Source: a virus
IMG/VR virus record: IMGVR_UViG_3300038463_000304
Coordinates: 1-35,676 of that record
DNA length: 35,676 nt
Reading direction: 5' to 3' (one strand)
This document shows, one piece after another, positions 195 to 34,304 of this stretch (positions are counted from its first letter, which is position 1; each line of letters begins with the position of its first letter). A model generated the notes under the pieces. That model made no database searches. It saw only the letters and a list, made by a program, of their open reading frames with translations, and was not told the origin of the DNA. A program made the position numbers and the translations under genes.

Positions 195-565
195 CCAGCA
201 GCCACGAATGTTCCAGTGATTGTAGGACGAGTCTGGTCGCTTATATCCCAGATAGTCAAAGTGGGAGACCCTAGGAATCCTACCCCGATGGCATATGTCT
301 TGCCTGTTACGATAGACGTGAAGATGGTCGTACTTTCATATTTGATTGTACCAGGAGAACCAGAAGGAACGGGGCCCTGAGTAACTAAAGAAAAATTCGG
401 ATTGATATTCTTGGATTGGTCAACGTAAGTAAATGACCCTCCTGCACTGAGAAAATCTCCGGCAAGATTGCTATTTGCTGGAGGCGCCGGAACTAGACCG
501 CTGGTGCCTCCGCTTCCACTATCCCCCACGAAAATCTGAAGATTTAGGGTATTTGTTGTTGTCAT
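1..565 (-). CDS. Propeller-type tail fibre, N-terminal part (runs off the window, continues at 35676)
   Basis: This is an open frame from ATG at 565 that reaches base 1 without a stop. It begins MTTTNTLNLQIF, then a Ser/Gly-rich linker (SGSGGTSG), then beta-rich repeats (LTIWDISDQTRPTITG, FVVVNLTNLAAPTQTS) of the LVIVD or seven-bladed-propeller type. When the window is circularised the frame joins 34314-35482 exactly, giving 578 codons including the stop. The likely role is a virion-attached fibre or receptor-binding protein. It lies directly after the 166-residue protein at 572-1072, and only a weak purine stretch (GCGAG) precedes the start. The fibre role is inferred from the tip domain at its C-terminus and from its neighbours. 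Confidence 0.8.
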   Translation of the reverse strand, partial: MTTTNTLNLQIFVGDSGSGGTSGLVPAPPANSNLAGDFLSAGGSFTYVDQSKNINPNFSLVTQGPVPSGSPGTIKYESTTIFTSIVTGKTYAIGVGFLGSPTLTIWDISDQTRPTITGTFVAAGGGAYNCTVGVVSGVQYAFVGYNSGAHFVVVNLTNLAAPTQTSTTVITGSPGSIYNVSFLNGYVY

Positions 566-20309: not shown

Positions 20310-21509
20310 CTAACACTTGCTCGCTTTTTTGCCGGTGTGTTTTTCCCAGCGATCAATTATCATTTGACAATATTCAGGTAGAATCTCCATCATCAGGCAA
20401 TTACGTCCTGTCTTTTCTGATGCGATCAGAGTTGTTCCAGACCCTCCGAAAGGATCGTAGATATAATCTCCTTTAGAACTATTATTTATAATTGGCTTCA
20501 ACATACATTCAATAGGCTTCTGGGTTGAATGTCCAAATGTTTCTTCTTTATCGGAATTACCAAAAGAATTATTATTTTTAATTTGCCATGTCGTGGATTG
20601 ATCTCTAGCTCCCTGCCAGTTATGTTTCTGTCCTTTCTTGACTACATAATGACATGGCTCGTGTTGCCAATGATAATCTCCTCTTGACATAGCAAAATGT
20701 TGTTTGACCCAAATAATCTGGTTAATTAGTTCAAAGCCGCAATTTTCTAAATTATTTTGGACGATATTACTATATTTGCCGGCATGCCAAACATATGCGA
20801 CACTGCCAGGAAAAAGAGAATAAGCTTCAGTCCATTCGACTTTATCATCATTAGCAACTTTACCAGTTGCTCGTTCTGCGGATCCTAAATCATGTCCATC
20901 TCTCCATTCGGGTTCATACTGCACGCCGTAAGGAGGATCAGTCACCATAAGATTAGGAATATTACCACTAAGAAGTTTAATTACATCAGACGCTGAAGTA
21001 GAGTCTCCGCACAATAACCTATGATCACCAAGCTCGAACATATCGCCAAGTATAATAGAAGAAGAAGAATTGGATGGGATGGCTTCATTATCTTGCTCGG
21101 TTACTTCTGGTTCAACTTCAGGAAATAAATTTGGATCCATTCCCCAGTCAATAAGATCTTTTATTTCAAAACAGTTAGCCAGAATATCCATATCGAATTC
21201 ACCAAAGATATCAAGGTTGTCTCTAATATTCAAGCGCTTTAATTCTCGTTCTTGTAAGAAGCGATTAGCTTTCAATACTGCTATATTTTGATCTACGGTA
21301 TAACCAGCAGCTAACAAAGCTTTCTTTCTAGCATGACCACCAATTATGGTATTATCAGCATTGACCAATATTCTATTATGATAACCGTCCTCAAGAATAT
21401 GAGCAACAAGTTTCTCGAAGGCTGTTTTGCTGATCTTGCGTGGGTTATGCTCATATTCTTTTAATTCCTTTATGGGAATTACTATTTGTTCCCATGTAAT
21501 ATTAGTCAT
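20310..21509 (-). CDS. DNA adenine/cytosine-N4 methyltransferase with ParB-like N-domain, 399 aa
   Basis: Residues 1-115 have the ParB/sulfiredoxin-like pattern (LKEYEHNPRKIS, then IIGGHARKKALLAAGY). The catalytic part has DPPYGV (residues 191-196, motif IV) and later DPFGGSGTTLIA (residues 351-362, motif I), the motif order of beta-class amino-methyltransferases. The substrate is DNA adenine N6 or cytosine N4, with S-adenosylmethionine as donor. No partner nuclease is visible, so it is likely an orphan enzyme that protects phage DNA or marks it before packaging. It sits directly upstream of the terminase genes. Confidence 0.9.
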   Translation of the reverse strand: MTNITWEQIVIPIKELKEYEHNPRKISKTAFEKLVAHILEDGYHNRILVNADNTIIGGHARKKALLAAGYTVDQNIAVLKANRFLQERELKRLNIRDNLDIFGEFDMDILANCFEIKDLIDWGMDPNLFPEVEPEVTEQDNEAIPSNSSSSIILGDMFELGDHRLLCGDSTSASDVIKLLSGNIPNLMVTDPPYGVQYEPEWRDGHDLGSAERATGKVANDDKVEWTEAYSLFPGSVAYVWHAGKYSNIVQNNLENCGFELINQIIWVKQHFAMSRGDYHWQHEPCHYVVKKGQKHNWQGARDQSTTWQIKNNNSFGNSDKEETFGHSTQKPIECMLKPIINNSSKGDYIYDPFGGSGTTLIASEKTGRNCLMMEILPEYCQMIIDRWEKHTGKKASKC

Positions 21510-23394: not shown

Positions 23395-23586
23395 CTATTC
23401 CTCATCCAAAGTAAAGCATGGGTAAATCATTTCGTATAGTTTCTCCCGATATTTCTGCTCTCCTCTGAATTCGCACAACCATCCTCTACGGTAAGAAGCT
23501 CCTGAGTCTACAACTGCTACGGTAATAGCGTCGGCAATCATTGCTCGAAATAGCACTTTCTCACGAACTGAGGGTTTTTTTTCCAT
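23395..23586 (-). CDS. Hypothetical small protein downstream of the initiator, 63 aa
   Basis: It begins MEKKPSVREKVLFRAMIADA and overlaps the initiator gene by 26 bases. The position is where lambda-like phages encode the helicase loader, but the protein is far too short for lambda P or DnaC and has no Walker motif. No family is recognised. Confidence 0.5.
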   Translation of the reverse strand: MEKKPSVREKVLFRAMIADAITVAVVDSGASYRRGWLCEFRGEQKYREKLYEMIYPCFTLDEE

Positions 23587-24298
23587 TTAAAACTTCAAAA
23601 TTAGGTAAGCCAAGACCAACTTCTTTAGCAGAATCGCAAAGAAACGCCAAGAGTTTATCCTCAATGCGGTTCATACGAAATTGGGAAGGAGCATGAATCG
23701 TGGGCTTTATACCATTCAGCGTCCAATGAACGTCTCCAAAGAGAGAATCATAACCTACTCTGCCGAGCTTCTTTAGCAAGATTTCGATCAGAGGTTTGAT
23801 TAATTCTGGAATTTCTTCTTCACCTTCCGAATTCAAATTTGAAAAACCTTTTTCCGTAAGTTCTTTATCTAAGTTATTATATAAGGTTAGGTTACCTCCG
23901 GGGGTAACCCCTAGTTCCCTCCGGGGGTAACCCTTAGTTACCTCAGAAGGTAATAGTTTTTCTGCAACAGTTACCTCCAGGGGTAACCCTTTTGACTTAT
24001 CTCTAGTTGGTACTATCAATGGTTTTTCCTCATTTTCAGGAAATAAAAAAGTATATTGATTGCGATTTTTCAATCTAACAGTATGAATGTATCCTAAATC
24101 AGCAAATTTTTTTAGACTGTCTGATACATGAGGTTTAGGAATGTCGAGTTCTTTTGATATCGTATTGAGCGATGGCCAACATTGATGGGTATCAAACCCT
24201 ATGTATCCTATGAGAATATTAATGACTCTGAGATCCTGTCCCTTGATTCTTGAATCTTTTGCTACTGCCCTTAGAAAGCTTTGTATTTTGAATATCAT
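23561..24298 (-). CDS. Replication initiator, lambda O-like, 245 aa
   Basis: The N-terminal 90 residues form a winged helix-turn-helix of the HTH_36 type (DTHQCWPSLNTISKELDIP, then PHVSDSLKKFADLGYIHTV). A linker (about 96-165) is followed by a helical C-terminal domain. As in lambda O, the linker-coding DNA contains repeated iterons (residues about 104-137). The protein should bind these iterons and recruit helicase to start replication. GGGGA lies before ATG. Assignment to the lambda O analogue rests on domain order and embedded iterons; a plasmid-type initiator is possible. Confidence 0.75.
   Translation of the reverse strand: MIFKIQSFLRAVAKDSRIKGQDLRVINILIGYIGFDTHQCWPSLNTISKELDIPKPHVSDSLKKFADLGYIHTVRLKNRNQYTFLFPENEEKPLIVPTRDKSKGLPLEVTVAEKLLPSEVTKGYPRRELGVTPGGNLTLYNNLDKELTEKGFSNLNSEGEEEIPELIKPLIEILLKKLGRVGYDSLFGDVHWTLNGIKPTIHAPSQFRMNRIEDKLLAFLCDSAKEVGLGLPNFEVLNGKKTLSS
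23826..23889. other. AT-rich tract beside the iterons, candidate unwinding element
   Basis: This AT-rich stretch flanks the iteron cluster on its left, downstream of the iterons in the direction of the initiator gene. Lambda has the same order: iterons, then the AT-rich segment, both within O. It encodes part of the initiator linker. Confidence 0.45.
23890..23989. repeat. Four iterons inside the initiator gene (putative origin)
   Basis: Four related dyads begin at 23891, 23914, 23937 and 23970 (spacing 23, 23, 33). The best copy reads GGTTACC TCCGGG GGTAACC at 23890-23909; the last is GTTACCTCCAGGGGTAACC (970-988), and copies 2 and 3 are degenerate in one arm. The GC-rich centre contrasts with the AT-rich surroundings. 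They are likely the initiator's binding sites and the phage origin. Confidence 0.75.
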
Positions 24299-24503
24299 TT
24301 AATCCCCATAATTCATTAGAGTAACAATATATTAACCACCTCAGCGATAATTTATTATTAATCGCTGTAAATAACTGTTGACAACTGTACCCTAATGTGA
24401 TATCTATAAGGATACGGTAACGCGGTTATGGTTTGAGTAGTTTTATGTTTAACGCTTCAAAACTACTCTTACTATATTGAAATTCAAGAATTATTTGGCG
24501 GGA
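24299..24503. promoter_or_regulatory. Regulatory region with dyads and opposed promoters
   Basis: No gene is visible. It holds two perfect inverted repeats: CAGCGAT/ATCGCTG (24342-24348 and 24361-24367, 12-base spacer) and GAGTAGTTTT/AAAACTACTC (24435-24444 and 24459-24468, 14-base spacer). GTTGACAAC near 24377-24385 offers a -35 on both strands. Neither dyad is followed by a T-run, so they look like operators or RNA structures rather than terminators. Confidence 0.5.
24378..24406 (+). promoter_or_regulatory. Candidate rightward promoter
   Basis: Consensus TTGACA (24378-24383) is followed after 17 bases by TATCTA (24401-24406) with an extended TGA just before it. A transcript would run antisense to the two small leftward genes and could carry the GAGTAGTTTT hairpin near its 5' end. 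Confidence 0.45.
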
Positions 24504-30010: not shown

Positions 30011-30625
30011 TTAATGTATTGATATGGCCCCAATAAAATTAACCACCCCAAATAGAGTATTAGTAGCTAAGCACACAAGGGTCACACCACTACAAGTCGT
30101 CGAGGTGGAAAGTTGTAAATAACCTCCTATCGAGGTAGTTTGAGTATTAAAGGTAATAAATTGACCAGAATTAGTCTCTATCCTTCCATTAGAAATAGTA
30201 GTTGAATTAGCATTAGATGTAATAATAAAAATATCTCCTACACTAGCTGTGGTCGGCAAGAAGAAATAAATAGAAGATAAATTCACATAACCATTATTAG
30301 ATACCATTGTTATGGGCGAAGATGAAACCGTATTCCAAGTAAAAGTTGATCCACCACCCCCACTAGCATTAATAGTGATTGCTCCCGATATGCTTGTAAT
30401 AGTTACATTAGTACCAGCAGTTAAAGTTGTTGCTATAGGGTCTCCTGAAGTAGTACCAATTAGAATTTCTCCAGCAGTTAGAACAATGGGATTAAATGCA
30501 CTAGAACCTTCGGTGATTAGTATACCATGAGCGGTAGCACTAGATGAGTTCAGTCCCGTACCACCCTCTGTAGGAGACAACGGCGTGTTACTATTAGCAT
30601 TAATCGAATTGTTTAATATTGACAT
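30011..30625 (-). CDS. Fibre-tip array protein 7, 204 aa
   Basis: This is the last of seven tandem paralogues. The N-terminal module (NNSINANSNTPLSPTEGGTG, then HGILITEGSSAFNPIVLTAG and LIGTTSGDP) and C-terminal module (LPTTASVGDIF, then NSGQFITFN) are both present, but the C-terminus diverges from the usual GNLTxV ending (VVNFIGAISIH). It shares the S/N-V/I-G-D-x-x segment with the next two genes. Role: probable virion surface or fibre-tip protein; the receptor is unknown. Confidence 0.7.
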   Translation of the reverse strand: MSILNNSINANSNTPLSPTEGGTGLNSSSATAHGILITEGSSAFNPIVLTAGEILIGTTSGDPIATTLTAGTNVTITSISGAITINASGGGGSTFTWNTVSSSPITMVSNNGYVNLSSIYFFLPTTASVGDIFIITSNANSTTISNGRIETNSGQFITFNTQTTSIGGYLQLSTSTTCSGVTLVCLATNTLFGVVNFIGAISIH

Positions 30626-30642
30626 ATAATCTTTCTTTTATA

Positions 30643-31251
30643 TTAATGAGTTGTAACGCTCGTCCCATAAAAACTAATAACCGTAAATGTTGTATTAGCA
30701 ACAACACAAACTAATGTTACTGTCGCCCCTGTTGAACCAGCTAAATATCCACTACTAGTAGTTTGAGTAGCAACGTAAGTAATATGTTGCCCCGAATTAA
30801 CATTAATTTGCCATGCTCCAGAATTATTATTAAAATAATTAGCTGTAACGATTATAGTATCTCCAATATTTGCTGTTGTGGGCAACGTATAAGTAACTAA
30901 ATTACTACTCGAATTTTGAACATATGCATTATTAGCAACTAAAGTTTGAGTTGAACCAGTTACAGAATTCCATGTAAGACTTCCGCCGCCACCGGTGGAA
31001 GCTATAGTAATAGAACCAGAGCCATTAGTTATAGAAATATTTGTACCAGCAGTTAAAGTAGCTGCTAAGGGATCTCCTGAAGTAGTGCCAATTAAAACTT
31101 GGCCTGTGCTCAATGCTATAGAACTAAATGCACTTGATCCTTCAGAAATCAAAACAGCATTAGCTGTAGGGCTGCTAACGCCAAATCCACCTGCATTGAC
31201 AGGCAATGGAGTAGTATTGTTTGCATTGATAGTATTATTCAATTCAGACAT
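30643..31251 (-). CDS. Fibre-tip array protein 6, 202 aa
   Basis: The N-terminal module reads NNTINANNTTPLPVNAGGFG, here with GGFG instead of GGTG, followed by AVLISEGSSAFSSIALSTGQ. The C-terminal module has LPTTANIGDTIIVTANYFNN and NSGQHITYVATQTTSSG. It ends ISFYGTSVTTH. It is closest to its two neighbours, which suggests serial duplication. Confidence 0.7.
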   Translation of the reverse strand: MSELNNTINANNTTPLPVNAGGFGVSSPTANAVLISEGSSAFSSIALSTGQVLIGTTSGDPLAATLTAGTNISITNGSGSITIASTGGGGSLTWNSVTGSTQTLVANNAYVQNSSSNLVTYTLPTTANIGDTIIVTANYFNNNSGAWQINVNSGQHITYVATQTTSSGYLAGSTGATVTLVCVVANTTFTVISFYGTSVTTH

Positions 31252-31263
31252 TAAATTTCCCTA

Positions 31264-31878
31264 TTAAGTTTTCAAAATAGTGCCAGTACCGTATATTACA
31301 GAATATACTGTATCAGCAACTATACAAACGAAAGTGACATCTGAACATGCTTGTCCACTATACAAAGTTCCGGTAGTTACTGTAGAATTTTGCGGCCCAT
31401 TATTAAATACCTGTCCAGAATTTTGTAATATAGTCCAATTCATCGATGAATTAACGAGTTCATTACAATCTACGCTAATAGTATCACCAACATTAGATGT
31501 GGTCGGTAAAGTAAACGTTACAGAATTTCCACCAGTATAATTTATTACATATCCAGTATTATTTGTCATATTGACGGTTGATGTTACAACAGACGTCCAA
31601 GTGAAACTGGACCCACCACCTGAAGAAGCTATTGTAATAGCGCCAGAAGTGGGTGTTATAGTAATATTGGATCCAGCGGTCAAAGTGGCAGGCGAGGGAT
31701 CTCCTGACGTATTACCTATCAGGAGTTGCCCAGCCCCTAGAACAATAGAATTAATGGCACTTGAGCCCTCACCAATCGCAATACCATGAGCGGTAGGATT
31801 GGATACTCCCGAACCGCCTTCTACCGTAGATAACGGCGTAGAACTATTAGCATTTAGGGAATTATTTAATACAGACAT
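31264..31878 (-). CDS. Fibre-tip array protein 5, 204 aa
   Basis: It has the complete N-module (NNSLNANSSTPLSTVEGGSG, GIAIGEGSSAINSIVLGAGQ) and a C-module of the NVGDTISVDCNELV subtype with NSGQVFNNGPQNS instead of the usual G-x-G-G-S-L loop. The variable loops lie at the positions that would face outwards in a beta-rich tip. The neighbouring genes are 9 and 12 bases away. Confidence 0.7.
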   Translation of the reverse strand: MSVLNNSLNANSSTPLSTVEGGSGVSNPTAHGIAIGEGSSAINSIVLGAGQLLIGNTSGDPSPATLTAGSNITITPTSGAITIASSGGGSSFTWTSVVTSTVNMTNNTGYVINYTGGNSVTFTLPTTSNVGDTISVDCNELVNSSMNWTILQNSGQVFNNGPQNSTVTTGTLYSGQACSDVTFVCIVADTVYSVIYGTGTILKT

Positions 31879-31887
31879 TTATACCCA

Positions 31888-32484
31888 TTATGTTACTGTT
31901 AAATTTCCAACGCAATTTCGTACCTGCCAAGTTGTATCTGCAACTATACATAATAATTCTACCATATCGCCTTGTAAAGTGCTAGCTAATGATCCACCAG
32001 TTCCTGTTGTCGAAGTAGTATTGCCCAATATAATATTTTGAGACGCATTCTGAGCAACTACCCAGCCGCCTGCAGTGCTACCTGTACCTACCTCAATGGT
32101 TGTACCATAAGCGGCAGTGGTTGGTAATGTAATAGTTACTACGCCAGCATTACTTGCGGTATAACCATTATTTACAGCAGCTGTTTGAGTAGTTCCTGTG
32201 ACATCATTCCAGGTAAAACTAGTCCCTCCACTTGCATTAATTGTAATTGAACCACTTACACTAGTAATTGTAACGTTAGTTCCAGCGGTTAATGTAGCCC
32301 CCACTGGATCACTAGCCGTTGTCCCTATTAAAACCTGACCCGCAGTTAAAACGATAGGATGAATCGCTGAGGCGCCTTCTCCAATCAATACCCCATGGGC
32401 TGTTGGAGCAGAAACACCAGTGCCGCCATTAGTAGTTGAAAGTGGAGTAGTCGAATTAGCATCTATTGAATTATTTGTTGTCAT
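31888..32484 (-). CDS. Fibre-tip array protein 4, 198 aa
   Basis: It has the N-module (NNSIDANSTTPLSTTNGGTG, then GVLIGEGASAIHPIVLTAGQ) and a C-module of the second subtype (GYTASNAGVVTITLPTTAAY, then GGWVVAQNASQNIILG, TTGTGGSLAS). It ends RNCVGNLTVT. It shares most with the two genes upstream, so a recent duplication block of three genes is likely. Confidence 0.75.
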   Translation of the reverse strand: MTTNNSIDANSTTPLSTTNGGTGVSAPTAHGVLIGEGASAIHPIVLTAGQVLIGTTASDPVGATLTAGTNVTITSVSGSITINASGGTSFTWNDVTGTTQTAAVNNGYTASNAGVVTITLPTTAAYGTTIEVGTGSTAGGWVVAQNASQNIILGNTTSTTGTGGSLASTLQGDMVELLCIVADTTWQVRNCVGNLTVT

Positions 32485-32495
32485 TATTTACCCAT

Positions 32496-33089
32496 TTATA
32501 CTTTTGTTAAATTGCCCATTGAACTTATCACTTGCCATCCTGCTCCACTTTGAAGGCAGACAAGCTTAACTGAGTTACCTTGAGCGGTAGAAGATAACGA
32601 CCCTCCCGTTCCAGTAGTAGTGATTACATTACCATGACGTATCGATTGACCTGACAATTGTGCAATTTTCCATCCTCCTGAGGTAGTTCCTGTAGTTACT
32701 TCTATTGTAATTCCATAAACTGAAGTAGGTAAAGTAAATGTTACTACTCCAGCATTGCTAGCTGTATAAGCACCATAGGCAAGCATAGTGTGTGTAGTAG
32801 CAGTTACATCTAACCAATATAAAGCATTATTGATAGTTATTGAACCAGATGCAGAAGTAACAGATACAGTATTACCGGCGGTTCCACTAGCTGTCAATGC
32901 AACAGCTGCTGGTGTATTAGTAGTTCCCACTAATAATGTACCAGCACCCATAGCTGTTGATGTAAGAAAACCAGAACCAGCTCCTTGTATAACACCATGA
33001 GCCGTTAGAGTAGCTGCGCCTGTTCCGCCTCTTAAGACAGGAAGAGGAGCAGTGGTAGGCCTAATATTAAGAGTATTATTAGTGGCCAT
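32496..33089 (-). CDS. Fibre-tip array protein 3, 197 aa
   Basis: The N-module is the most divergent of the array (NNTLNIRPTTAPLPVLRGGT, then HGVIQGAGSGFLTSTAMGAG), but the C-module (AYTASNAGVVTFTLP, GGWKIAQLSGQSIRHG, TTTGTGGSLSST) is close to genes 2 and 4. This mosaic pattern suggests exchange of modules. It ends VISSMGNLTKV. Confidence 0.75.
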   Translation of the reverse strand: MATNNTLNIRPTTAPLPVLRGGTGAATLTAHGVIQGAGSGFLTSTAMGAGTLLVGTTNTPAAVALTASGTAGNTVSVTSASGSITINNALYWLDVTATTHTMLAYGAYTASNAGVVTFTLPTSVYGITIEVTTGTTSGGWKIAQLSGQSIRHGNVITTTGTGGSLSSTAQGNSVKLVCLQSGAGWQVISSMGNLTKV

Positions 33090-33100
33090 GGTATATTTTC

Positions 33101-33691
33101 TTATACGTAAGTTATATTCCCAACAGCACTAAGAACTTGGAAAGTTGTATTTGCTACTGTACAAAGAAGTTTAACAGAATCTCCCAGTGCCGTAAATTGT
33201 AAAGAACCTCCTGTGCCTGTTGTAGTTGCAACTGAGCCGAATTGAATAGATTGCGATGCATTTTGTGCAATTTTCCATCCTCCTGAAGTAGTTCCTGTAG
33301 CAACTTCCATAATTGTACCATAAGCTGCTGTTGTAGGTAGTGTAAGAGTCACTAAACCAGCATTACTTGCGGTATAAGCTCCGCCAGCAACCATAGTTTG
33401 TGTAGTAGTAGTTACATTCGTCCAAGTGTCAGTAGCAACACTAGCAATAGTGATAGAACCCGAACCACTTGTAATATTTATACCAGTTCCTGCTGTCAAT
33501 GTAGCAGCAGTAGGATCTGCTCCCGTCGTACCGATCAATACTTGGCCAGCGGATAAAACTATTGGATTAAACGCACTTGTACCTTCTGAAATTAGAATGC
33601 CGTGATTAGTCGGGTTACTAAGTCCTGTACCACCATCGAGTACTGATAAAGGTGTAACTGAATTAGCATTTATTGAATTTTGAATTGTCAT
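33101..33691 (-). CDS. Fibre-tip array protein 2, 196 aa
   Basis: It has the N-module (QNSINANSVTPLSVLDGGTG, then HGILISEGTSAFNPIVLSAG) and the C-module (AYTASNAGLVTLTLPTTAAY, GGWKIAQNASQSIQFG, TTTGTGGSLQFT, LLCTVANTTFQVLSAVGN). It is a near-ideal member of the family and a useful reference for the others. Confidence 0.75.
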   Translation of the reverse strand: MTIQNSINANSVTPLSVLDGGTGLSNPTNHGILISEGTSAFNPIVLSAGQVLIGTTGADPTAATLTAGTGINITSGSGSITIASVATDTWTNVTTTTQTMVAGGAYTASNAGLVTLTLPTTAAYGTIMEVATGTTSGGWKIAQNASQSIQFGSVATTTGTGGSLQFTALGDSVKLLCTVANTTFQVLSAVGNITYV

Positions 33692-33704
33692 TATTAATTG
33701 CTCC

Positions 33705-34304
33705 TTATACTACTGTGAAATTACTGACTGAACTTATAACGACCCATGCTATATTGGCCTGAATACAAAGCAATTGTATAGCGCAATTTTGCCCACTAAT
33801 AGAAGTTATGGAACCGCCAGTGCCAACCGTAGTAGTAACATTGCCAAATTCTATATATTGACCCGCTGCCTGCGTAATCTGGAACCCAAGACCACCATCC
33901 GCCACTGCCACTACATCTCCTACTGCCGAAGTGGAAGGTAAAATGAAATCTAGATTAGTTCCTGCACTATTTTGTATATAACCATGCGCCGCTACCATTG
34001 TTACAGGAGCATTTACAGTAACATTATTCCATGTAAATCCACCTCCACCAGTTGAAGCAATAGTAATAGTACCAGCACCAGGAGTTACACTAATCCCCGT
34101 ACCTGCAGTGATAGACGCAGCTACAGGATCAGCTCCAGTCGAACCGACTAATAATTGCCCATTTGTTAATACAATAGGGTTTACTGCACTAGCACCTTCG
34201 CCAACTAAAATACCATGAGCTGTCGGATTGGATAATCCTGTTCCGCCATCGGTGGTTATTAGAGGGGTGGAGGCATTAGCATTAATGGAATTTTGAGTTG
34301 CCAT
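33705..34304 (-). CDS. Fibre-tip array protein 1, 199 aa
   Basis: It has the N-module (QNSINANASTPLITTDGGTG, then HGILVGEGASAVNPIVLTNG) and a C-module of the third subtype (FILPSTSAVGDVVAVADGGL, then FQITQAAGQYIEFGNVTTTV), closer to the tip of the propeller fibre and to the 166-residue protein than to its downstream neighbours. It is the first array gene after the fibre gene, 9 bases away. Confidence 0.75.
   Translation of the reverse strand: MATQNSINANASTPLITTDGGTGLSNPTAHGILVGEGASAVNPIVLTNGQLLVGSTGADPVAASITAGTGISVTPGAGTITIASTGGGGFTWNNVTVNAPVTMVAAHGYIQNSAGTNLDFILPSTSAVGDVVAVADGGLGFQITQAAGQYIEFGNVTTTVGTGGSITSISGQNCAIQLLCIQANIAWVVISSVSNFTVV

Follow-up and report, generated by a model that had tools for sequence, protein, structure and literature searches.

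Tandem GTTACC dyads inside a phage initiator gene as a probable replication origin

The window analysed here (the whole 35,676-nucleotide stretch of viral DNA, IMG/VR record IMGVR_UViG_3300038463_000304) carries four GTTACC-N6-GGTAAC dyads, starting at 23891, 23914, 23937 and 23970 and all located within one minus-strand ORF (23561-24298), and these very probably constitute an intragenic iteron origin that is read by the product of the same gene. Intragenic iteron origins are a known class, represented by lambda, P22 and phage L, each of which has different repeats inside its initiator gene (PMC8022706); the difference here is that no recognisable P, DnaC or DnaB gene accompanies the array in an apparently near-complete genome. 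The original prediction had placed a lambda-type origin in a P22/N4-like structural background; in a P22-like background this is no surprise, since the origin of P22 is likewise intragenic, in gene 18 (PMC8022706).

The predicted starts of the four dyads were exact. The repeat had been described as a 19-nt unit and is real, but the 19-mer is one base off symmetry, the symmetric unit being the 18-mer GTTACC-N6-GGTAAC. In the sense of the gene, the first iteron is GTTACCTCCAGGGGTAAC (23970-23987) with perfect arms, followed by GTTACCTCAGAAGGTAAT (23937-23954; the third copy by position) with one arm mismatch and a diverged core, GTTCCCTCCGGGGGTAAC (23914-23931) with one arm mismatch, and GTTACCTCCGGGGGTAAC (23891-23908), which also has perfect arms. 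By increasing coordinate the steps are 23, 23 and 33 bp, and the array (23891-23987) spans gene positions 312-408, i.e. codons 104-136, in the linker-coding part of the gene. When the whole window was searched at up to three mismatches, the 19-mer was confined to the array (chance expectation 0.00), and none of 5,000 synonymous re-codings, made with the window's own codons and the protein kept, reached four dyads when one arm mismatch per dyad was allowed; the maximum was three. Selection for amino acids, with VTxxGN as a protein-level repeat, is a barely credible explanation. Dyads of several relatives do encode VTxxGN in frame, but those of the window contradict this reading, as they occupy three reading frames and one alone encodes the peptide, so that the repeated unit is DNA; moreover, the dyads lie ahead of the gene in three viral contigs (L002, L004 and L010).

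The AT-rich tract that had been proposed to flank the dyads is present. The segment 23826-23889, a probable DNA-unwinding element lying 3' of the iterons in gene sense, is 75% AT against a window mean of 61%, which places it among the top 2.8% of 64-bp windows. No 60-bp stretch of the gene is less stable than 23830-23889, directly 3' of the dyads, although genome-wide this stretch is not exceptional, about 1% of the genome being equally unstable.

The array-bearing gene encodes a protein of 245 aa with an N-terminal winged-helix (wHTH) domain, an iteron-bearing linker and a small C-terminal domain. The winged-helix DNA-binding domain (residues 17-83; 24050-24250, minus strand) had been assigned to HTH_36, a match that falls below the Pfam cutoff (E 3.1e-4, 20.9 bits versus 25); PHROGs groups the protein, over the wHTH region only, with O-like initiators (phrog_678, E 1.7e-6). 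PF04492 (Phage_rep_O) did not match the protein. Searches for homologues in phages, plasmids and viral contigs, and in 369 sampled genomes of one class, gave none, and thus conservation of the iterons in the initiator's own close kin is not demonstrable. The full-length single-sequence structure model had a pLDDT of 38 and was unusable. Promoters near the gene were at chance level. The gap upstream of the gene also contains an 18-bp inverted repeat with a 14-bp loop (24427-24476), with no clear function.

A search for the same dyad in other initiators, which the original prediction had suggested, showed that the array recurs in other phage initiator genes. The first scan of the viral collection required two tandem dyads and used the DNA motif alone, without protein information; it returned 11 tandem arrays, most of them inside O-type initiator genes. 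Phage_rep_O scored above cutoff in 6 of the 11 loci, another array lies inside a phrog_270/678-type initiator (L003) and one in an unassigned ORF (L009), while three are located directly upstream of RepL-like wHTH genes (L002 4850-4888, L010 1440-1478 and L004 4983-5021). The GTTACC half-site is therefore common to O-type and RepL-like genes. An alignment of O proteins proved too heterogeneous to search the collection with. A wider scan of viral contigs was evaluated with an HMM built from the N-terminal domains of initiators. At scores of 6 or more, 20 of 21 arrays were inside an initiator or no more than 150 bp away from one, part of the arrays having trained the HMM and some contigs being near-duplicates, compared with 2 of 61 weaker matches. 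Outside the training set, all ten arrays scoring 9 or more were found with an initiator, some of these again being near-duplicates. No description of GTTACC iterons in phage initiators was found in the open-licence literature. The recognition helix of most GTTACC initiators carries H-[VIL], often H-x-x-R, but was rejected as a discriminating code because HK225 (CGGGAA iterons) and HK97 (ATTAGC) share H-V and the window protein has no R.

Between phages the arms of the dyads are fixed and the six central bases vary freely, as expected for protein-DNA half-sites. This argues against an action of the repeats in RNA, as attenuator or terminator hairpins formed by the initiator mRNA or by antisense RNA, which is very improbable. 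It is true that the coding-strand RNA folds better than shuffled sequences (z -3.87) and that position 23970 has a terminator-like site on the plus strand, but such folding is expected of any DNA palindrome, and the terminator count is near chance (2 versus 1.0).

The motif was found at four loci in bacterial genomes, so that the GTTACC half-site is not confined to phage origins. One locus lies beside an O-like ORF, two are situated upstream of a SatD-like gene in Proteus, and the fourth is at the end of a contig. In the Proteus chromosomes (L083 3714-3759 and L084 7898-7943) two dyads are 28 bp apart, and those of L083 sit between a fis-like gene and the SatD-like gene. The contig end of a Tannerella MAG (L085 7607-7716) carries five dyads with an exact 23-bp spacing, their context being cut off. 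The occurrence of tandem GTTACC dyads outside phage initiators, as in Proteus, would fit operators for self-repression or attenuation of the initiator gene, with the origin elsewhere, and so would a product that is a small wHTH protein. This explanation is nevertheless unlikely, as the sites are placed 300-400 bp into the coding sequence, where they separate two domains and have the least stable DNA of the gene right behind them, and as the arrays recur in O-type genes, where the same intragenic position is that of the proven origin of lambda (PMC3349717, PMC7466680).

An intragenic iteron origin is in line with control phages. An unsupervised de novo search for the best repeated dyad of each gene, used as a positive control, recovered the TCCCTC iterons of lambda, four 18-bp units that adjoin a 38-bp AT-rich sequence (PMC3349717), as well as the TTTACC repeats of P22 gene 18. 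The iterons occupy gene positions 350-412 in lambda and 353-437 in P22, about the same place as in the window (312-408). HK97, N7 and HK225 were among the phages that gave distinct dyads of their own, usually located at about 340-450 of the gene; three Bacillales O genes and Ehr49 yielded none. Of 15 genes with iterons, 13, including those of lambda, P22 and the window, have their least stable 40 bp right after the iterons on the 3' side.

The neighbourhood of the initiator gene is less usual. A helicase, loader or ATPase gene is annotated beside O in 10 of the 12 annotated control phages, whereas the ORF downstream of the window initiator encodes 63 aa with no family match. No P, DnaC, DnaB or primase gene was found among the non-structural ORFs of the window that were scanned, in agreement with the claimed absence of a P-type loader. 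A 33.9-kb contig (G001), whose TerL is 79% identical, is collinear with the window but for a circular permutation, which makes both records look nearly complete. In the interval bounded by the same neighbouring genes, this contig has no GTTACC dyads, and its initiator slot (L073 15275-16402) is occupied by a gene for a 375-aa RecA-fold AAA_25/DnaB-like ATPase; a 59% relative (G002) has a 518-aa, weakly O-like initiator instead. With these different initiation genes, the replication module has evidently been exchanged, and the swap between collinear sister phages shows a cassette-like exchange of initiation systems. The GC skew has a minimum near 23-25 kb, matched by another at 33-34 kb, and tracks gene orientation, and the count of DnaA boxes is at chance. 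Elsewhere in the window, a ParB-like domain is fused to a DNA methyltransferase (phrog_498; 20310-21509; 73% conserved in G001), and seven paralogous ORFs in tandem, each of some 200 aa (30011-34304), likely variants of tail-fibre or receptor-binding proteins, all match one region of G001.

The C-terminal 86 residues of the initiator (160-245; 23564-23821, minus strand) tentatively and weakly resemble DnaA domain I, through which DnaA contacts DnaB, a likeness that we take as a lead only. DnaA_N is their sole Pfam match (E 0.024; 14.8 bits versus a cutoff of 24.6), and DnaA domain I their sole PDB sequence match (E 1.4). A single-sequence model of this part, of low confidence (pLDDT 49.6), has the order helix-helix-strand-strand-helix-strand that a KH-like fold would show; its best match in VIA-align is DnaA domain I (4tps_D; rmsd 3.0, 75 aligned residues) with a Z of 6.5, in the inconclusive range of the tool. 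Two further entries, 2e0g (Z 5.8) and 2wp0_D (Z 5.3), are listed among unrelated rows of similar Z, and DciA (8a3v_C) ranks lower than DnaA domain I for this low-confidence model. DnaA domain I was placed second of 727 by hhalign, with a probability of 17%, and with an HMM built from 24 DnaA domain I sequences of gammaproteobacteria the domain scored no better than shuffles.

Binding, melting, origin activity and helicase recruitment at 23.9 kb are what we infer from these features. The N-terminal wHTH domain would bind the GTTACC-N6-GGTAAC dyads as dimers, and the dyad-bound initiator might build an O-some-like complex. Next to the dyads, on their 3' side, the AT-rich tract would then open, and the DnaB helicase of the host would be brought to it. 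As no gene for P, DnaC or DnaB is seen in the genome, contact with the helicase may be made by the C-terminal domain itself, with its faint likeness to DnaA domain I. Initiation by one gene, in which the wHTH reads the intragenic GTTACC iterons and the DnaA domain I-like tail recruits host DnaB directly, is thus conceivable, though we consider it somewhat doubtful. If true, the roles of lambda O, P and ori would be condensed into one 738-bp gene, and, provided that the C-terminal domain contacts DnaB, this minimal, self-contained initiator-plus-origin would be a simple model for testing how a helicase is recruited without a loader. Tandem GTTACC-N6-GGTAAC may also serve as a DNA-only handle for locating origins and initiators in uncultivated phages, even when their proteins are beyond the reach of family models.

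The predicted lambda-type origin stands as far as the wHTH, the iterons in the linker, the unstable tract, the recurring arrays and the lambda and P22 controls are concerned, and departs from lambda in the missing partner helicase or loader gene; the origin would therefore work like those of lambda and P22 without being a strict member of their group. As in the lambda ori within O, four dyad iterons lie between the DNA-binding and C-terminal domains, with an AT-rich tract directly 3' (PMC3349717). The window differs from lambda in its half-site (GTTACC with a 6-bp centre versus TCCCTC with 5), in one 33-bp step, in a barely recognisable wHTH and in having no P gene. Compared with DnaA, the C-terminal domain would share the α-α-β-β-α-β order according to its low-confidence model, but is fused behind a phage wHTH with no AAA+ domain, and the similarity is sub-threshold. 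The gene 18 origin of P22 also has four repeats at a matching gene position, with a spacing of 20, 24 and 23 and a half-site, TTTACC, close to GTTACC, and a P22-like portal is common to both phages; unlike the window gene, however, P22 gene 18 adjoins its own DnaB-type helicase (gene 12). Finally, the array-bearing Phage_rep_O initiators (L005-L008, L011, L012 and others), of which those named match this family strongly whereas the window protein does not, have the half-site, the 6-bp centre and the place in the gene that are found in the window.
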